A stretch of DNA of 64,000 nucleotides from Chthoniobacterales bacterium (lineage in GTDB: Bacteria > Verrucomicrobiota > Verrucomicrobiia > Chthoniobacterales > JAATET01), in the NCBI GenBank assembly GCA_036569045.1, contig DATCRI010000011.1:1-64000 (forward strand). Reading direction: 5' to 3'. Position numbers and translations under genes: made by a program. Numbering within the stretch: position 1 is the first letter of the stretch; every line of letters starts with the position of its first letter. Of the stretch, positions 23,631-34,791 are shown in pieces. A model generated the notes under the pieces. It made no database searches. It saw nothing but the letters and a program-made list of their open reading frames with translations, and was not told the origin of the DNA.

Positions 23631-23655
23631 AAAGTGGCTCCTGAGGTAGGATTCG
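23631..23655. repeat. attL: left 25-bp direct repeat of the element
   Basis: Identical over 25 bp to 34713-34737 (core CTCCTGAGGTAGGAT). It duplicates the 3' end of tRNA-Asn, including the T-loop-proximal strand, acceptor and CCA complement. This is the left attachment site left by site-specific integration. Confidence 0.9.
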
Positions 23656-23823
23656 CCTGTGCTTCTCGTTTATTTACAGGTATTTACGACGTTTTTGACA
23701 CTGTTCGTCAAGACGATTTTTGCGAACTCCGTGACTATCAAATCGGGTGCTTTTGAGATTTTTTGCTGGCAGTTTTGCTGGCAGTTTTGCTGGCAGTTTT
23801 TTGCCCCACCTCCTGAGGTAGGA
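23656..23823. repeat. Left-end region with three 12-bp arm-type repeats and a partial att copy
   Basis: No gene is evident here. Three exact tandem copies of GCTGGCAGTTTT occupy 23765-23800. A 15-bp partial copy of the att core (CTCCTGAGGTAGGAT) follows at 23810-23824, ending on the stop of the next gene. GCTGGCA at the same 12-bp pitch reappears at the right end (34638-34661). The pattern fits integrase arm-binding sites. Confidence 0.6.
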
Positions 23824-24978
23824 TCATATTTCCCGCAGAATTACATCAGGTTTATCACTCATCGACACTGAACGTCCCAGTTCAGTTTCAAGCTCGCGCC
23901 CCAGGCGACTTTTCTCCTCTCCGAATAACTTGGCGAGTTTACGTGCAATACCGCCTCCGGCGGGTGCCAACACCAAGCGGTTCATCAACGCGCGGACACC
24001 GACCAGATTTTTGGCAGAATTGATTGGATCGCCAGATTTGAAAGTGGTTTTGAGCCAATCGACGCCAATTTGGACTGTGGTATCGCCCACTGGAAACGCT
24101 GAGCAGTGTGCATCAATATGGCGGGCGACCGACTGAAGCAGTTTTTCGCGAGCCAGAAGATCGTGGGTGTCACTCGTATCCAGAGCAGTTTGAAATTCGC
24201 TCAACCACTGCCGCAAGGAAGCGTATTGCTCTCGAAGCTGTAGAGCGATTTTGAGCAAATCCCCCGGCTGTTGCGCCTCTTGGATCGCGAGTGCGGCAAT
24301 AGGCGGTAAATGCAGCCGGACAAGATAACCACCTGAATCTATGCGATTGAGCACCTTTACCCTTTGCTCTGCCACAAATTCGCGAAAGCGCCGCTCGGCG
24401 GATCGCAACCCAAAAAGGCTGTCCACTCGCCCGAACCAGGCTTCTCGCACTGGATGACTGTTGTAGGGAATACTGAGCACGTGGGCGCGTGCCAGCATAC
24501 CAGCTCCGCCCCAAATGAGCTGACCGAAATAGGGATCGGCCGATCTGCCGCTTTCCTTGAATGTCCGGACATTTTCCTCATGGTGCTCACGCATTATCGG
24601 GCAGACGCAGAGCTCCTCGACGAAGCACTGTCGGATCGGTAGCCATTCTTGTCGAATGTCTTGGAACGGCTTTGGAATGACCAAGCCGTCGGAATACAAA
24701 GTTTCTAACTCATCGAATTGACGCCAGGTATCTGCGTGCTCTCCCTCTACAAACAATGCGTCGGTGAAAACCAAATTGTTGAGCACTTGAAAGAGGCAAC
24801 GTACATTCAGCGCATCCTGAGGCACCGCTTTATAAGAGAAATCGTTCTGCTCCGGCGCGACTTCCAATTCACTGGCCGTGCCGCCCACAAGTCCATTCGA
24901 CAGGAGCGTCCCGACGCATTGAAGAGTCCAATTGTCGATCAGCAGATTGCTCATCTTTGCTTGGTGGGTGTTTTGCAT
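23824..24978 (-). CDS. Hypothetical island protein (384 aa)
   Basis: A full-length open frame of 384 residues with normal amino-acid composition; no family recognised. The C-terminal part LAKLFGEEKSRLGRELETELGRS is charged and helical. There is a Cys-rich patch near the middle (CFVEELCVCPIMREHHEENVRTF) and no signal peptide. An internal ATG at 24954 is an alternative start. It lies 73 bp downstream of the HsdR/Avs-like chimera on the same strand, so it may be an accessory gene of the Avs-type part. That is inference from position only. Confidence 0.6.
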   Translation of the reverse strand: MQNTHQAKMSNLLIDNWTLQCVGTLLSNGLVGGTASELEVAPEQNDFSYKAVPQDALNVRCLFQVLNNLVFTDALFVEGEHADTWRQFDELETLYSDGLVIPKPFQDIRQEWLPIRQCFVEELCVCPIMREHHEENVRTFKESGRSADPYFGQLIWGGAGMLARAHVLSIPYNSHPVREAWFGRVDSLFGLRSAERRFREFVAEQRVKVLNRIDSGGYLVRLHLPPIAALAIQEAQQPGDLLKIALQLREQYASLRQWLSEFQTALDTSDTHDLLAREKLLQSVARHIDAHCSAFPVGDTTVQIGVDWLKTTFKSGDPINSAKNLVGVRALMNRLVLAPAGGGIARKLAKLFGEEKSRLGRELETELGRSVSMSDKPDVILREI

Positions 24979-25051: not shown

Positions 25052-27592
25052 CTACTCTCTTCGCCCCTTCCTTACCCCTTGATTCTTTTCGTAATCTCCT
25101 TGCTCATAATAGGTCCGTTTGCCGAAAGCTATTTCCCCCGAGTCCGTAAGCCAGGCGAGTTGAGAGAAACAAACACCAGACTTTTTTGGAACTCGCTGTT
25201 CGCCAAGAATGCGTTTCTCACCGAGCATCGTCCAGACGAGTCGGCGCTTCAGGGTCTTCAACACTCTATTGAGATATTCGGCATCCGCGAGGAGCGCGTG
25301 CTTGCCCCCGAATCTGAGCGATGGATCAAAAAAAACGGTGCGATCGCCTGCTGTGAAACCGTCGATGCCGTTCCACCACAGATCGTTTAACGTGAAAAAA
25401 GGTTTGCTTGGTGCCTGGAGGTAAAGACTCGTCGGGACCATAGGATCGTAAGTCCATTCCGAAAGAAGGTGGTTCGATGCGTGATGTGCTTTTAGCGACG
25501 TGTCTCGAATTTTCTCGTCCGCACCTAGATACCAATCGGGCAAAACATTGTAGGAACTGCCAAAAGGATATTCTCCCGCGAACGCCGACAACCACTTGCC
25601 TTCGGTGGGAAGCCACAGGCCAAAGTAGTTACGCTCGTCCAATGCTTCAATGGTAGCGTCCATATCCGCATCCGGAATGAGGTAGCTATTGATGTGAATC
25701 CAAGAGTCTCGATACGGGTCGCCATACTTCCGGTGAGGATCGAATTCTCCCCAACTCGGATAAGCAGTTAGCAGCTGCCATCGCTGGTCCTGAAAGTCGG
25801 AGATTTCCAAGAGGCATTCAAAGGAGGGCAGATCATCGCGTTTAGCGACCCAGTTGGCGAAGCTCAATTCCTTCGTTGCATGCAAATCGATGCGTTCATG
25901 AATCCACCAATCCTCGCCCGTCTCGGCAGCTACCGTAATGGTCAATGTCGGATCGAGTTTCCGCTCTTCAAGAAGGATGAGCGGACGCCGAATCGGATCG
26001 GGCTCCCAACTGTCGGCTTCAGCTTTGACCTTGTCATGCAGTCGGGACGCGAGCCGGTAGAGCGCGATCCACTGATACTTCTTACCGATTCGCTCAGCCC
26101 AAACGGGTTTAGCCCGGCCGCCCCCTTCTTTCGCGGTGATGTATTGGTCGTATGCATCACAATCGCTCTCCGCTAACCCCATATCTTTGACGATATGATT
26201 CACAAGCCATGCTCCGATCTCAGGCTTGGTGAGGTTCGCCATCCATGGCCCCAAGCAACCTATTGTGTAGTGGTTGAAATCGTCGTGAAGACAGCTTCGT
26301 GCGACGTAACCAACTGCTCCGTCGGCATGGACCCATTTCTCAATCTCGGAGTCTGTGGGAAAGCGAAGCGGCCAGTCAGCGCGACGCTGCCTGCGGGTCG
26401 GTGCGAGGGGATTGAAACCTGTTTCTAAGCAGTCCAGCTCTGCAGCTAACTCCGCGAGACAGCGGATGTGATCGCGGAGAAGAGCGTTCTGGAACGATTG
26501 CGGCTCGGACAGATACCGCTCCATAACGGTCTTCGCGACGCGTCCGAGGGTGTTGGAATCAGGGTTGAGTAGCAGAGCCCCGTAAATACTAAGTAGCGTC
26601 CGCTCGCGGACCTCATCGTCATCGATAGAAAGGAGAGCATCTATCAACTGCAATGCGATCTCGGGCTTCGCCCGTAAAACCAAAGTCGCGGCTCGGGTAG
26701 CTCTGTCTTTCACGCGGCGATCTGCAGCCGCAGTGAACCACAAGAGGGTAAGAGTCCATCGCAACGCGGTTTCCGGGGCAATGTCAACGAGTGGGACGCT
26801 TCGAGCCGCCTCAATTAGTTGGGAGACGACGTAGATGCGGCGGTCGGTGGTGATGGTTTTCTCGCCGGGCTCAGGCCAACGAGGTTCATCGGGAATGTGT
26901 TCTTTGAAGGCATCGAGCGCCTGTCCACGTAGGGCGATGCGATCCACAAGGAAAAGGGTGCGCTGTACGACGCCCGCCCTCATGAGGGCATCGACAAGAG
27001 CGATGCAAGTGCGAGTCTTGCCTGTGCCGGTGGCCATGACGAGGAGGAACTGCCGGCGGCTCTGCGCGATGCCCTCCATGACGGAGCGGATGGCCTGTAG
27101 CTGGTAATCGCGTCCCGCGATGGTGGTGTTGATTAACTCACTGGTGAGTGGCTTCTTGTGTTTGCGGAGGTGCAGTAGGCGTTCAAGGTCTTGTCGAGTA
27201 GGGAAGCCGTGGACCTTTTGCGGTGGGGCTTCGCCGAGGCTCCAGAAAAAAATATCGTGGCCGTTGGTGTAGAAACAGAAAGGCAGTTCGCCCCCCTGTT
27301 CGATCTGGATGTTTACGCAATATTGTTTGGCCTGTTCGCGCCCGATCTCGGCGTCTTTCGAGGATTTCTTGGCTTCGACCACGGCGAGAGGTTTGCCGTT
27401 TTTGCCGAGGAGGACGTAGTCGCTGAATTCGCGTTGAACATCGTAAGTGGCGGGATCTTCACGTAGGACAGCGCCAGAGCCGCGAGAAACGAAGAACTCT
27501 TCGATAACCTGAGTCCGGTCTGAAACATTCCACCCCGCTTCTTTGAGTCGGAGGTCTATGATTTCCTTTCGGAGTTGGGCCTCAGAAGACAT
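25052..27592 (-). CDS. Chimeric defence ORF: HsdR N-terminal nuclease half fused to Avs-like C-terminal part
   Basis: One uninterrupted frame of about 846 residues. Residues 1-255 match a type I restriction R subunit: SSEAQLRKEIIDLRLKEAGW, a PD-(D/E)xK-like nuclease core (FSDYVLLG, then LAVVEAKKSSKD), and helicase Walker A MATGTGKTRTC, ending at TDRRIYV. The helicase then stops; there is no DEAD-box motif. From about 26827 the frame becomes a C-terminal segment resembling large STAND antiphage proteins of the Avs type: RWTLTLLWF, VKDRATRAATLVL, DDDEVRERTLLSIYGALL, and ERIGKKYQWIALYRL. It is either a deletion product fused in frame or a functional hybrid. The Avs assignment comes from remembered motifs and needs a search. 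Confidence 0.6.
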   Translation of the reverse strand: MSSEAQLRKEIIDLRLKEAGWNVSDRTQVIEEFFVSRGSGAVLREDPATYDVQREFSDYVLLGKNGKPLAVVEAKKSSKDAEIGREQAKQYCVNIQIEQGGELPFCFYTNGHDIFFWSLGEAPPQKVHGFPTRQDLERLLHLRKHKKPLTSELINTTIAGRDYQLQAIRSVMEGIAQSRRQFLLVMATGTGKTRTCIALVDALMRAGVVQRTLFLVDRIALRGQALDAFKEHIPDEPRWPEPGEKTITTDRRIYVVSQLIEAARSVPLVDIAPETALRWTLTLLWFTAAADRRVKDRATRAATLVLRAKPEIALQLIDALLSIDDDEVRERTLLSIYGALLLNPDSNTLGRVAKTVMERYLSEPQSFQNALLRDHIRCLAELAAELDCLETGFNPLAPTRRQRRADWPLRFPTDSEIEKWVHADGAVGYVARSCLHDDFNHYTIGCLGPWMANLTKPEIGAWLVNHIVKDMGLAESDCDAYDQYITAKEGGGRAKPVWAERIGKKYQWIALYRLASRLHDKVKAEADSWEPDPIRRPLILLEERKLDPTLTITVAAETGEDWWIHERIDLHATKELSFANWVAKRDDLPSFECLLEISDFQDQRWQLLTAYPSWGEFDPHRKYGDPYRDSWIHINSYLIPDADMDATIEALDERNYFGLWLPTEGKWLSAFAGEYPFGSSYNVLPDWYLGADEKIRDTSLKAHHASNHLLSEWTYDPMVPTSLYLQAPSKPFFTLNDLWWNGIDGFTAGDRTVFFDPSLRFGGKHALLADAEYLNRVLKTLKRRLVWTMLGEKRILGEQRVPKKSGVCFSQLAWLTDSGEIAFGKRTYYEQGDYEKNQGVRKGRRE

Positions 27593-27733: not shown

Positions 27734-27952
27734 GCCTGAAACGTCCGAAAATAACGCAGCTTCTTCATCGCCCTCAAATTCGTTCAGCGCAATGGCAAGC
27801 TCCTCATCATAGACATCTGAGAGAGACTTGAGAAGCGGGGCGGAAAAAATGTAGGTCTTGAAGTCTGCCGCATCAACCGGCTCCTTGAGCAGCCAAGCGG
27901 CTTTACAGAGGCGGGATTCGAGTTGGAAAGAGAGAGTTGCCCCATTGAATCC
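27734..27952 (-). pseudogene. Remnant of type I methyltransferase HsdM (N-terminal fragment)
   Basis: The translation includes ESRLCKAAWLLKEPVDAADFKTYIF and SDVYDEELAIALNEFEGDEEAALF, the start of an HsdM N6-adenine methylase. It skips residues in the middle (the normal FPLLFLKRISDVYDEE region reads SAPLLKSLSDVYDEE) and ends before any methylase motif. The rest of hsdM and all of hsdS are missing. It lies directly upstream of the HsdR-derived frame, in the order hsdM-hsdR. No start codon of its own is evident. Confidence 0.65.
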
Positions 27953-27988: not shown

Positions 27989-28075
27989 TAGGAGCGGTGG
28001 GAGTCGAACCCACATCAGCCGATTATCTATCGCACGGGGTATAAGCCCGCTGCTCTACCGTTGAGCTACGCTCCC
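27989..28075 (-). tRNA. tRNA with UAU anticodon (Ile-type) and a long variable arm
   Basis: On the minus strand the cloverleaf reads: acceptor GGGAGCG/CGCTCCT (one G-U at the top), D-arm GCTC-AACGGTA-GAGC, anticodon stem GCGGG/CCCGT with loop CTTATAC (anticodon TAT), a 20-nt variable region containing CGAT-AGATA-ATCG, T-arm GTGGG-TTCGACT-CCCAC, discriminator A. No CCA is encoded. A long variable arm normally marks Leu, Ser or Tyr tRNAs, so its combination with an AUA-reading anticodon and a class-I-like D-arm is odd. It is carried on the mobile element. Confidence 0.75.
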
Positions 28076-28658: not shown

Positions 28659-28764
28659 TTCGAGAGAATGGTTTCCGCCTCAGTAGCGCGCGCCGTCAGA
28701 ATGTAGAGGCGACAATCGATGACGCCAGTCCTCAGCCAATTAAAAAATCCCATATGCGGGATAA

Positions 28765-28998
28765 GTGCTCACACATCCTTCGTGGGTGCGCAAGCTCAGA
28801 AAGCAGTTGGCCGTGTTCCTTCGCGAGAAACGTGGAACTCTCACGCTCGATCAGTTCGCCAAAAAGTTGGGAATTTCCGATTCGAGCCTGAATCGGCTGG
28901 AAATGGCCGATCAGAACCTGACCATTGATACCTTGGAGCGACTTTTGGACCGGCTCGGCTGCGATTTCGGAGATGTCTTCAAGCGCGAAAGGCGCTGA
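28765..28998 (+). CDS. XRE-family helix-turn-helix regulator
   Basis: A 77-residue protein starting at GTG, almost entirely a Cro/C1-type HTH: RGTLTLDQFAKKLGISDSSLNRLEMADQNLTIDTLERLLDRLGCDFGDVF. It probably controls the neighbouring island genes. It starts about 106 bp from the divergent 139-aa gene, so the shared interval (28659-28764) is a likely operator region. No ligand domain. Confidence 0.85.
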   Translation: MLTHPSWVRKLRKQLAVFLREKRGTLTLDQFAKKLGISDSSLNRLEMADQNLTIDTLERLLDRLGCDFGDVFKRERR

Positions 28999-29039
28999 TC
29001 GAAAATCGCCCGTCCCTCCGTGAAATGAGGCCATAATCG

Positions 29040-30251: not shown

Positions 30252-30322
30252 GGAAGTCGCTCGCTGCCGCTCGCATGTTGGAACGCAGATCGTCCGCGGC
30301 ACGAGGCAATAGGGAAAAGAGC

Positions 30323-32353
30323 ATGGCCATCTTCCATTTCAATATTCGAACGGTCCAGCGTTCGGAGAAAGGCGGTCATACCGCCGAGCAGCTCTCCTAC
30401 ATGCTGGGCGAGCGATTGCGGCTTCCGAGCGGGAAGCTCGTCAGCGCCAAGCTTGCTTCTTTCCACAGCGATGAAGCTAACTCGATCATCAGCGGAGTCA
30501 TTGGATGGTCGGGCACCTGCCAGGGACTCGCCGACGCCACCGAATCCGCCGAGAGACGGCAGGACGCGCGTGTCGCGCGCCGCATCATCGTCGCACTTCC
30601 TCACGAACTGGATCGTGAGGCCCAGAAGCGGCTCGTCAAAAGCTATTGTCTCAAGATCCGCGATCTTCATGGCGTGGCCGTCGCCTACGCTCTCCATCCG
30701 CCCAACAAAAAGGGAGACGGCCGTAATCACCATGCGCATCTGCTTCTCACGACACGCCGAGTCGAGGCAGACAAGTTTAGAGCGAAGACACGCGAACTCG
30801 ACACCATCGTCTCCGCGCGCGCGGCAGTTGAGGTCATGCGCGAGGAGTGGAGCAAGCGCGTGAATGCCGCGCTGAAAAAGTCAGGTGTCGCTTCGCGTAT
30901 TTCCCATCTCAGCCTTGAGGCACAAGGCATCTCCTGCGAACCGACACGGCATGTCGGCCTTCGCGCAACCGCGGCTGCCCGTGCCGGGCGTCGCATGCAG
31001 GCAGTCGAACAAAATGAGCGAGCAAAACGAGATGACAGACAGATCACAAACGCACGAGTTGATGCGGCTCTCCGCCGAGCTCGAAAGGCTCGCGAGCGAG
31101 CTGGAGAGCGTAACGTCGCTGCTCGTCGAGGTCGGCGACATCTGGCTGGTGCCGGGAAAAGTCCAAGCCATCTGGGCGGAGGCCGGACAAACGCTGATCG
31201 ACGGGGTGCCGTGCAATCTTTCCAAGCAGGAGGCGGCTCAAAAAGTCAACGATCTGCGGTCGCGCTCGATGAGCTGAAGCGCTCCATCGATCTCACGCGA
31301 TTCGCCGGTGTGAGTGGCTGGCTGCTCGATGTGAGCGGTGGGATGGGAGGGCGTCATTTTCAAATGCGTCAGCCCGACGGCCAGCGCGAGATCGTGGTGA
31401 GCCGATCGCTCGACGGACAGTGGCGATATTTCCGACGCGACAGCGGCGAAGGCGGCAGCATCATCGATTTCGCGCAGAAGGAACTTGGCTGGGGCGATCT
31501 CGGCTCGGTGCGAAAACGATTGTCGGAGGTCGTGGCGGGATCGTTGCCGCCACCGGAGCGGAAGCGATTCGCTTCTTTCCCCATTGCCAAGCCTCGCGGC
31601 AGCGAGGCTGCGCCGCAGGCCGCGACAATCGACGCCATCCAATATCTGCAAAACGTCCGCGGATTTCGTGCGGAAACCCTCGACCATTTTTCCGGAAGCT
31701 GGCTCGACGATGGACGCGGCAATGCGGTTTTCCCGCACACCGAGGCCGGAGGCCACGGTGGAGAAATCCGCGGCGCGGGATTCCAAGGATTCTCAGCGGG
31801 CGGGACGAAAAGTCTCTGGGCTCATATTCCAGACCGATGCGAGAAACTCGTGATTTGCGAATCCGCAATCGACGCGATGTCTCACGCTCAGGCGCACGGA
31901 CTTCCCGACAACACCGGCTACGTTTCTGTGGGCGGCGGTTTCGGCATCCCGATATTGGATGCAATCATCGAGATCGCTCGGCGCATGACGGCGGTGCTGC
32001 TTGCGGCATTCGACCGGGATTCCACGGGTGAATTCAATTCCGCGCGGACGATCATGCACGGACGTGCTGCCGGGTTGGAGGTGGTGCGGGATGCACCTCC
32101 CGAGGGTCGAAAAGACTGGAACGAGGTTATTTGCGCCGCGCCTCCTCAAGTCGAGGCGACCGAGGAAATCCCGTCGTTGTCTGCCGGCGAGTGGGAGAAG
32201 CAAATCATGTTCGCCGTGAACATGGAGGACGCGGTGGAGATCCGAAGGCTGCTCAAATACGGGCGGTCGCACCTCGACCTTGCCGATGGGTTCATCGACG
32301 AAACGATCCGATACGCGGAGCGGCATCTTCTTGCGGAGGACCTTCACCAATGA
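30323..32353 (+). CDS. MobA/MobL-type relaxase fused to a DUF3991/Toprim region
   Basis: A continuous frame of 676 residues. The N-terminal 230 residues form a MobQ relaxase: MAIFHFNIRTVQRSEKGG, ARRIIVALPHELDREAQKRLVKSYC, and the metal-binding motif GRNHHAHLLLTTRRV. The C-terminal half from about residue 320 has a DUF3991-type segment (DELKRSIDLTRFAG, GGSIIDFAQKELGW, FRAETLDHFSGSWLDDGRGNAVFP) and a Toprim-like part (LVICESAIDAMSHAQ, AFDRDSTGEFNSAR). The linker at about 31014-31277 is Arg/Ala-rich and overlaps a better-looking frame. The Toprim part may therefore start separately at GTG 31211. Confidence 0.8.
   Translation: MAIFHFNIRTVQRSEKGGHTAEQLSYMLGERLRLPSGKLVSAKLASFHSDEANSIISGVIGWSGTCQGLADATESAERRQDARVARRIIVALPHELDREAQKRLVKSYCLKIRDLHGVAVAYALHPPNKKGDGRNHHAHLLLTTRRVEADKFRAKTRELDTIVSARAAVEVMREEWSKRVNAALKKSGVASRISHLSLEAQGISCEPTRHVGLRATAAARAGRRMQAVEQNERAKRDDRQITNARVDAALRRARKARERAGERNVAARRGRRHLAGAGKSPSHLGGGRTNADRRGAVQSFQAGGGSKSQRSAVALDELKRSIDLTRFAGVSGWLLDVSGGMGGRHFQMRQPDGQREIVVSRSLDGQWRYFRRDSGEGGSIIDFAQKELGWGDLGSVRKRLSEVVAGSLPPPERKRFASFPIAKPRGSEAAPQAATIDAIQYLQNVRGFRAETLDHFSGSWLDDGRGNAVFPHTEAGGHGGEIRGAGFQGFSAGGTKSLWAHIPDRCEKLVICESAIDAMSHAQAHGLPDNTGYVSVGGGFGIPILDAIIEIARRMTAVLLAAFDRDSTGEFNSARTIMHGRAAGLEVVRDAPPEGRKDWNEVICAAPPQVEATEEIPSLSAGEWEKQIMFAVNMEDAVEIRRLLKYGRSHLDLADGFIDETIRYAERHLLAEDLHQ
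31014..31277 (+). CDS. Embedded out-of-frame ORF (87 aa) inside the relaxase-Toprim frame
   Basis: An 87-residue frame, +1-type overlap with the relaxase frame: it begins MSEQNEMTDRSQTHELMRL, has a coiled-coil LSAELERLASELESVTSLLVEVGDIW, and ends NLSKQEAAQKVNDLRSRSMS. In this stretch its codons carry G/C in third position, while the relaxase frame reads as low-complexity Arg/Ala. So this may be the selected protein here, either dual-coded or separating two genes. No family recognised. Confidence 0.5.
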   Translation: MSEQNEMTDRSQTHELMRLSAELERLASELESVTSLLVEVGDIWLVPGKVQAIWAEAGQTLIDGVPCNLSKQEAAQKVNDLRSRSMS

Positions 32354-32427: not shown

Positions 32428-32771
32428 TGCTTTCGAGCAAGAAGATCACGAGCGGGCACGAGATTCTCGCGATTCTGAACTGCCACCGACTGCCGGGGCG
32501 TCTGACGACCGCGGAAACCGCGGTGCTTCTCGGATTTCAGGAACACGACATCGCGCCGCTCGTCGCCGCGAAGATGCTCACGCCGCTGGGCAAGCCCGCG
32601 CCGAATGCGCCGAAATATTTCGCGGCGATTGAGGTTCAGGCGTGCGCGGAAAATCGGGACTGGCTTTCACAGGCGACGAAAGCGCTCACGCAGCATTGGC
32701 ATCGCAAGAACAGCCGGAAACGGACCTCGCAGAGCGACCATCCAACCCTCGAACTCGAGGACGAAAGCTAG
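32427..32771 (+). CDS. Small DNA-binding-like island protein (114 aa)
   Basis: A 114-residue protein with a winged- or simple-helix look: TSGHEILAILNCHRLPGRLTTAETAVLLGFQEHDIAPLVAAKMLTPLGKPAPNAPKYFAAIEV. This resembles short helix-turn-helix/excisionase-like modules that choose a DNA site, but I cannot name the family. AAGGAGG lies 7 bp before the ATG; a GTG at 32424 is the alternative. The C terminus is polar and basic. It converges with the antitoxin gene, overlapping by 4 bp. Confidence 0.6.
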   Translation: MLSSKKITSGHEILAILNCHRLPGRLTTAETAVLLGFQEHDIAPLVAAKMLTPLGKPAPNAPKYFAAIEVQACAENRDWLSQATKALTQHWHRKNSRKRTSQSDHPTLELEDES

Positions 32772-33154
32772 ATGCCCGCCTCGATGTGGCCGAGACTCAA
32801 AAGCAGCTCGGGAGTCTTCTGCATGACTTCGAGAAGTCGCAGGGCGGCACCGGACGGCTTTCGTTCGCCCGACTCCCATTTGCGGACCGTGACCGAAGGC
32901 ACGTTCAGAATCTGGGCGAACAAAGGACGGCTCAGGTTGCGCGCTTCGCGCAGCTTGACGATCTCGGTCGGCGAAAATTTCGGAGCCGGAGCCACAACTC
33001 GGAAGGAGCGGAGCGTCAGCTTCTTTTTGCCGGCATAGTGATCCGCAACGTCCCTCATGTCCCGCACGAGATCGGCGGGATCGAAGACGGCATCATCCCA
33101 GCTTGAAATGCGCTTTGAGGAGGGAGGCCGCTTGCTTGAGGCTTTGCTTTTCAT
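32768..33154 (-). CDS. HigA/NadS-like antitoxin with HTH
   Basis: A 128-residue protein. Its C-terminal two-thirds is an HTH_XRE domain of the HigA/NadS type: FSPTEIVKLREARNLSRPLFAQILNVPSVTVRKWESGERKPSGAALRLLEVMQ. The N-terminal region WDDAVFDPADLVRDMRDVADHYAGKKKL is likely the toxin-binding part. The frame begins inside the toxin gene (62-bp overlap), giving a toxin-first order typical of higBA. It probably represses its own promoter. Confidence 0.82.
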   Translation of the reverse strand: MKSKASSKRPPSSKRISSWDDAVFDPADLVRDMRDVADHYAGKKKLTLRSFRVVAPAPKFSPTEIVKLREARNLSRPLFAQILNVPSVTVRKWESGERKPSGAALRLLEVMQKTPELLLSLGHIEAGI

Positions 33155-33452
33155 CGTCGGTCAATGTTTCGCGTTTGGATTTCTTGTAGAGGGTCGCGAG
33201 GAAGATCGCGTCGTGCTCGGGCAGGTAGAGATAGATGACGCGAGCGCCGCCGCTCTTGCCTGCTCCGGCAAGACGCATCCGCGCTTTTCGAAATCCTCCT
33301 GTGCCTTGAATGACATCGCCACGTTCGGGATCCTCCAGCAGTTCCTTTTGGAATCGCCGATAGTCCTCGTCCCCGACCAGCGCCGTGACGATGGCGGTGA
33401 AACGCGGAAGTTCGATGAATTCCAAAGCAGACGGTATGTTACTTTGTATCAT
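33093..33452 (-). CDS. RelE/HigB-type toxin
   Basis: A 119-residue toxin of the RelE superfamily, likely a ribosome-dependent mRNA interferase: FIELPRFTAIVTALVGDEDYRRFQKELLEDPERGDVIQGTGGFRKARMRLAGAGKSGGARVIYLYLPEHDAIFLATLYKKSKRETLTDDE. The Arg in GGFRKAR, Lys in GKSGGARVIY and the YKKS block are typical of this group. It is paired with the overlapping antitoxin gene. Such modules stabilise integrated elements. Confidence 0.85.
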   Translation of the reverse strand: MIQSNIPSALEFIELPRFTAIVTALVGDEDYRRFQKELLEDPERGDVIQGTGGFRKARMRLAGAGKSGGARVIYLYLPEHDAIFLATLYKKSKRETLTDDEKQSLKQAASLLKAHFKLG

Positions 33453-33455
33453 CTT

Positions 33456-34538
33456 TCAAGTTCCCGTTGCGGCCTGTGCCGGAGCCTCGTCGAGCGTGAT
33501 GCGGAGCGGCATGGCGATGACTTTGCGCTCGGCGAGCGATTCGTATTCGTCGAGGGCCGGAAGGATGACCATCGCGCCTTTGGCGTAGGCCTCGTGCACG
33601 GCGCGGCTGCTGTGGCCCAGAGCTTCCTGCGCGAACCGCTGCGGATAGCCGCAGGCCTTGGCCCGCTGCGCCCAAGAATGCCGGTAGGAGTGAAGGCTGA
33701 CGCCGGACACGCCCGCGATGCGGCACCGGCGGCTGAACTCGGTCGAACGCGCATTCGCGCCCGCCGTCCGGATCGTCGGGAAGAGCGGTCCGGTTTTTGG
33801 CAGCGTCTCCAAAAGCTGACGCAGCGTCTTGCCGATGCTGAGCCGTGCTGGCTCGCTGTCGGGGCCGAGCTTCTTGCGGCGATAGACGAGCAGCATGTTC
33901 TGCCAGTCGATGCTTTCCGCGGTGATCTCGGCGGCGTCCGACTGCGCGGCTCCGGTCTCGTAGAGGAACTGGTAGTAGGCGCGCTTTTCGGGATTCTTCT
34001 CGCTCGCCATGATGCGCGTGTGCTCGTCGGCGGTGACCGCGCGGCGGCGCTTGCTGACCTTCTTCGGCCAGCTCCGTTTCGTGAGGACCGGCCACGGCAG
34101 CCAGCCGAGATCGACGGCGAGGTTGTGCAGGCGGCGGAGGTAATGCGCGATGGAGTTGCCGTTGGCATGGACGACGGCGAGCAGATCCGCGGCGGTCGTC
34201 TGGACGAGCGGCTTATCGCGAATCGGATCGTAGGCGCGTGAGCACATCGTGCGCGCGCAACGCTCACGGGTGGCATCGATGCCGTGGCGCTCCATCTCGT
34301 GCATGACCTCGCGCCACGTGCGCTTGCTCATGCTCGGATCGTGCGCGGCGAGATAGGCGCGCGCGATGGAGAGATTCAGCGTGGGCTCTCGGTGCGATTC
34401 ATTCTTCGCGTTGACGAGTTTCTGCGCCTCGCGCCGATCCTTCGTGCGCAGGCTGCCCTGCTTGTTGGTTCCGTTCTCCTGCCAGTAATAGACGCCGTTC
34501 TCGCGCTGATACAGGCGGTATCGATCCTTCATTTCCAC
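33456..34538 (-). CDS. int: Tyrosine recombinase/integrase of the element
   Basis: A 360-residue phage-type integrase. The N-terminal arm-binding-like part is YRLYQRENGVYYWQENGTNKQGSLRTKDRREAQKL. A SAM-like domain follows, then the catalytic domain with HSYRHSW (HxxR), LGHSS (third His) and the nucleophile Tyr in AVHEAYAKGA. The first catalytic Arg position reads TGAAQSDAAEIT, with Gln-Ser where most integrases have Arg-x. It lies 179 bp from tRNA-Asn, with arm-type repeats between. It catalyses excision and integration at the 25-bp att core. Confidence 0.88.
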   Translation of the reverse strand: MEMKDRYRLYQRENGVYYWQENGTNKQGSLRTKDRREAQKLVNAKNESHREPTLNLSIARAYLAAHDPSMSKRTWREVMHEMERHGIDATRERCARTMCSRAYDPIRDKPLVQTTAADLLAVVHANGNSIAHYLRRLHNLAVDLGWLPWPVLTKRSWPKKVSKRRRAVTADEHTRIMASEKNPEKRAYYQFLYETGAAQSDAAEITAESIDWQNMLLVYRRKKLGPDSEPARLSIGKTLRQLLETLPKTGPLFPTIRTAGANARSTEFSRRCRIAGVSGVSLHSYRHSWAQRAKACGYPQRFAQEALGHSSRAVHEAYAKGAMVILPALDEYESLAERKVIAMPLRITLDEAPAQAATGT

Positions 34539-34712: not shown

Positions 34713-34737
34713 AAAGTGGCTCCTGAGGTAGGATTCG
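34713..34737. repeat. attR: right 25-bp direct repeat (tRNA-Asn 3' end)
   Basis: Perfect copy of 23631-23655. It covers the CCA end, acceptor strand and part of the T-arm of tRNA-Asn, so integration keeps the tRNA intact. Confidence 0.9.
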
Positions 34738-34791
34738 AACCTACGACCAATCGGTTAACAGCCGATCGCTCTACCACTGAGCTACTCAGGA
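34717..34791 (-). tRNA. tRNA-Asn (GTT)
   Basis: A complete cloverleaf on the minus strand, 75 nt with encoded CCA. Acceptor TCCTGAG/CTCAGGA, D-arm GCTC-AGTGGTA-GAGC, anticodon loop CTGTTAA (anticodon GTT), T-arm GTAGG-TTCGAAT-CCTAC, discriminator G. Its 3' end is the integration site of the mobile element. Confidence 0.96.

Follow-up and report, generated by a model that had tools for sequence, protein, structure and literature searches.

The open reading frame at positions 25052-27592 on the minus strand of the window (the whole stretch of DNA analysed, 64,000 nucleotides) is very probably a decayed remnant, in which deletions in the defence cargo of a mobile island joined the ends of an hsdR gene and an avs2 gene in frame by chance. 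The event was most likely private to this island and fairly recent. The frame comprises 846 codons and zero internal stops, in agreement with the first-pass annotation that drew attention to it, and the full open frame starts further upstream at 28015 and encodes 987 aa. Three defence genes are represented within these 987 codons: family models assign residues 31-90 to the N-terminus of HsdM, residues 142-397 to the N-terminus of HsdR and residues 397-987 to the C-terminal part of Avs2. Position 27592 is the native hsdR start, since the equivalent start is found in the closest viral and Roseibacillus hsdR genes. The components are arranged as follows.

25052..26824, minus strand: C-terminal ~590 residues of Avs2, the sensor half (PADLOC Avs2, 9e-91; PDB 9o4e; alignment)
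26825..26829, minus strand: HsdR/Avs2 junction (DNA similarity to four hsdR genes breaks off abruptly here; junction sequence single-copy in the genome)
26825..27592, minus strand: HsdR residues 1-256, PD-(D/E)xK nuclease domain and first part of RecA1 with Walker A (homologues; Pfam HSDR_N/ResIII)
27746..27925, minus strand: HsdM N-terminal scrap (PADLOC MTase_I, 1e-10; plasmid HsdM matches)

The N-terminal part had been labelled as an HsdR nuclease with a Walker A motif, and three sets of family models bear this out. Pfam detects HSDR_N and ResIII, the latter stopping at profile position 83 of 164; PADLOC detects REase_I (E=5e-44, aa 140-397 of the 987-aa frame); and NCBIfam detects the EcoAI/FtnUII HsdR family (NF046051, E=4e-37). 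When the two halves were aligned together, the rows for Avs2 were misplaced and the alignment served for its HsdR rows alone; in these the nuclease domain is present, with SDYV, VEAKK and EQAKQY conserved. The closest intact HsdR is a 932-aa protein from a viral contig (L120; 80% identity over the kept part), followed by the intact protein of Roseibacillus persicicus (L031; 78%), and in both loci hsdM and hsdS come after hsdR. According to Pfam, the intact viral protein contains ResIII (158-311), Helicase_C (424-523) and EcoEI_R_C (775-925). The window protein leaves HsdR at residue 256, within the first helicase fold, past Walker A and ahead of the DESH box, such that the DESH box, the second helicase domain and the C-terminus are lost. 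A complete SF2 helicase motor (motifs I-VI) is therefore absent: Walker A and the stretch after it remain, and there is no Helicase_C. Thus, compared with EcoAI/FtnUII-type HsdR proteins, the window copy shares residues 1-256 at 78-80% identity, including the nuclease and Walker A motifs, but is without ~675 C-terminal residues (helicase motif II onward) and without its hsdM/hsdS partners. Cognate HsdM and HsdS were absent beside it, and the adjoining HsdM scrap derives from a type I system unrelated to the HsdM partner of the present HsdR.

The remainder of the frame had been described as an Avs-like C-terminal half, which is correct and can be narrowed to Avs2. The NCBIfam Avs2 model (NF041813) matches this part with E=2e-66, yet at 225 bits against a cut-off of 1000, and the solved Avs2 structure 9o4e matches with E=2e-33 in an alignment that begins at its residue 824. 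Intact Avs2 proteins of the phylum are 1422-1515 aa long and viral ones ~1340-1500 aa, in addition to some shorter viral frames. The NTPase of one Avs2 relative (L203) lies near residues 346-470, and the join would fall at about residue 800; the N-terminal effector and the central STAND NTPase are therefore entirely missing from the frame. This assignment of the domain loss is based on PADLOC and NCBIfam coordinates together with L203, because two further relatives (L202, L204) show zero Pfam domains. Avs2 model positions before ~645 are unmatched in the genome, and the N-terminal part of the frame is HsdR instead. Relative to Avs2 (AVAST type 2), therefore, residues ~397-987 align over the C-terminal part and carry the motifs ERIGKKYQW and DDDEVRER, whereas some 800 residues comprising the effector and the STAND ATPase are lacking.

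The switch from one protein to the other had been placed at TDRRIYV, and this proved exact: DNA similarity to hsdR ends at 26829 and similarity to Avs2 begins at the join. At the switch point the closest HsdR reads ...EPGEKSITTDRRIYVATYPTMLNI and the window reads ...EPGEKTITTDRRIYVVSQLIEAARS; beyond it, the closest HsdR goes on IYVATYPTMLNI and the window goes on IYVVSQLIEAARS. Because the Avs2 alignment starts at the join, there is no linker between the two parts. In AlphaFold models the nuclease part is predicted to fold with fair confidence, the region around the join and beyond it is modelled with low confidence, and the Avs2 side appears helical. The models of the Avs2 half (6 alignment rows, pLDDT 53) and of the junction piece (15 alignment rows, pLDDT 60) were too weak for a fold search.

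The chimera is carried as cargo by an integrative island of 11.1 kb, possibly mobilizable, that is inserted in a tRNA-Asn gene; this island was absent from the earlier account of the locus. Its boundaries and other contents are listed below.

23631..23655, unstranded: attL at the left island edge, a perfect 25-bp direct repeat matching the tRNA-Asn 3′ end (100% identical to 34713-34737; repeat search)
23810..23824, unstranded: 15-nt piece of the att core, a third and incomplete copy (repeat search)
23824..24978, minus strand: 384-aa gene of no recognised family (no Pfam, PADLOC, NCBIfam or PHROG match)
27989..28075, minus strand: tRNA-Ile(UAU), 87 nt, enlarged variable region (ARAGORN and Rfam)
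30275..32353, plus strand: MobA/MobL relaxase with Toprim domain (Pfam, NCBIfam)
32768..33154, minus strand: HTH antitoxin-like protein (Pfam MqsA/HTH_3)
33093..33452, minus strand: RelE-family toxin (Pfam RelE, 5e-9)
33456..34538, minus strand: tyrosine integrase, adjoining tRNA-Asn just inside the right repeat (Pfam Phage_integrase, 2e-11)
34713..34737, unstranded: attR, 25-bp repeat overlapping the tRNA-Asn 3′ end (repeat search)
34717-34791, minus strand: tRNA-Asn

The G+C content is about 52% at the chimera versus 66% outside. The att repeats of the tRNA-Asn 3′ end, the adjacent integrase, the toxin-antitoxin pair, the relaxase and the lower G+C are all shared with tRNA-inserted genomic islands that carry defence cargo; in the present island, however, that cargo is broken. 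The partial att core at 23810-23824 is possibly a remnant of an earlier insertion. An unoccupied insertion site was looked for in two congeneric genomes (G046 and G048): they contain the left-flank gene, without tRNA-Asn or att sequences nearby, and only one side of the flank is conserved.

The HsdR/Avs2 combination was found nowhere else. There was no frame containing both among 213 genomes of the order, 388 genomes of the phylum, phage and plasmid collections or 11 viral Avs2 loci; Avs2 was present in 0 of 171 hsdR-bearing loci; and searches with the HsdR part as query returned 80 loci from genome contigs and 80 from viral contigs, none with Avs2. The Avs2 half alone retrieved no relative from genome contigs and viral contigs. 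Intact homologues of the halves exist apart, as a 932-aa HsdR accompanied by HsdM and HsdS and as Avs2 proteins of the length given above for the phylum. The first-pass annotation had named precisely this combination, a junction in no other searched genome and halves that each match separate full-length genes, as evidence against its proposal of a fusion and for a private deletion. Within the genome itself, the missing pieces of HsdR and Avs2 were not found elsewhere: the HsdR-like gene on another contig (C53) shares only 33-36% identity, and the Avs2 model gave no match outside the present frame. An inversion or translocation within the genome was also considered, and the reciprocal product that it would leave was searched for and was absent. 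A parental island lacking the deletion was not found either, so the deletion itself was not observed.

We read the frame as a scar because the joins fall inside folds, both motors have been removed and the frame also holds a fragment of a third system, unrelated to the other two. The uninterrupted frame is not above chance expectation, since a random join keeps the natural frame of the downstream gene one time in three. We infer deletion as the mechanism, and events most likely ran as follows. The tRNA-Asn island would once have carried or accreted at least an EcoAI-type hsdR and an avs2, along with another type I system now reduced to the hsdM scrap. Deletions or illegitimate recombination would then have removed hsdR from codon 257 onward plus its partners, and the same loss would have taken the avs2 effector, the STAND ATPase and everything between, leaving ends that met in frame by the one-in-three chance. 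The first-pass annotation had offered, as one of two alternatives, the collapse of two defence systems by one deletion that kept the frame; the collapse stands, while the single deletion between two systems gives way to at least two joins and the remnants of three genes.

Both halves remain well preserved. In the HsdR part, 100 of 102 near-invariant positions are retained; in the Avs2 part the figure is 26 of 33 conserved positions, where intact relatives keep 26 of 28-35. Decay after the join is not visible, with no stop over about 850 codons. Either the event was recent or the product is still constrained, two possibilities that a single copy cannot separate. Translocation by HsdR during restriction is driven by its helicase. 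If translated, the product would plausibly retain a nuclease fold but would possess neither a helicase motor nor a STAND switch, so that restriction and Avs-type activation would both be unworkable by known mechanisms; the frame is probably without function. Activation of Avs proteins involves a tripartite STAND architecture of effector, NTPase and C-terminal sensor (PMC12931631).

The other alternative of the first-pass annotation was a selected nuclease-sensor fusion, i.e. a working one-protein receptor in which the HsdR nuclease would take the place of the Avs2 effector, while the C-terminal half of Avs2 would sense a phage protein and switch the nuclease on without a STAND ATPase. We consider this very improbable, even though the order of nuclease, P-loop and sensor superficially resembles that of Avs, the frame retains Walker A together with the residues of the nuclease motif and those conserved in Avs2, and the native hsdR start codon is kept ahead of an open frame. 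The fusion is present in no other genome searched, it is one among several scraps at the same place, and its join lies inside a fold, leaving half of a RecA fold and removing the ATPase that known Avs proteins use for switching on. The AlphaFold model, although shallow, is likewise low in confidence at and past the join. Nothing in the results points to the new mode of coupling that such a receptor would require, and the proposal of a selected fusion is unsupported.

There is also little chance that one half alone is still used, for example as a separately translated Avs2 C-terminal protein or as a shortened HsdR nuclease with a regulatory or competing role. Both halves look undecayed, and in one other locus (L050) hsdR is independently truncated at nearly the same position, which would suit such a use. 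However, the promoter signal at the join is no better than chance, stand-alone Avs2 C-terminal halves are unseen among the intact homologues of the phylum, and the sole split case (in G262) appears to stem from a frameshift or an error in sequencing. Finally, the genome is a 91-contig assembly and the contig might wrongly unite two loci. Against this, the 300-bp stretch around the join occurs only once in the genome, leaving no repeat able to misguide the assembler, no other part of the assembly contains the missing halves, and the matching att repeats close the island on one 152-kb contig. Misassembly at the join is unlikely, with much the same weight in our estimate as a working receptor, and the HsdR/Avs2 join is real in the present assembly.

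Interpreted as a deletion scar, the locus is a well-defined example of turnover of defence cargo in a mobile island, with three remnants in one open frame. Automatic annotation would label this frame as a type I restriction/Avs fusion, and we suggest treating an in-frame defence fusion as a scar when it has been found only once and its join lies within a fold. If the product did work, it would challenge the view that Avs sensing needs a STAND switch.

Other interrupted hsdR genes were encountered in the same sample: among about 54, two were truncated in other ways and one more lay beside a transposase-like gene. In L050 (1477-2256) hsdR is independently interrupted at codon ~255 with a Fic-like gene next, and in L122 (5992-6744) at codon ~248, where a transposase-like gene lies downstream and the contig end is close. 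Both breaks fall within ten codons of that in the window (~257). A hot spot for hsdR breakage was considered, and a survey of other loci and plasmid hsdR genes gave no further case; the closeness of the three breaks is therefore left as coincidence.

Several other features of the island and its genome were recorded. Of 384 genomes of the class, 3 carry homologues of the 384-aa gene (39-40% identity), and the neighbours of these homologues, labelled from their ORFs, include type I R-M, DUF262-like, HipA-like and STAND-like genes, making this family a candidate for association with defence. The 3′ end of the tRNA-Ile(UAU) overlaps the open frame; with ~17 extra nucleotides in its variable region, it is an unusual cargo tRNA. 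Beside it, at 28732-29000, are the remains of a helix-turn-helix protein, apparently frame-broken. Outside the window, contig C9 of the same genome (G000; 111447-114845) carries about twenty tandem tRNA genes in 3.4 kb, a cluster like the arrays of tRNA genes carried by phages or integrative elements.
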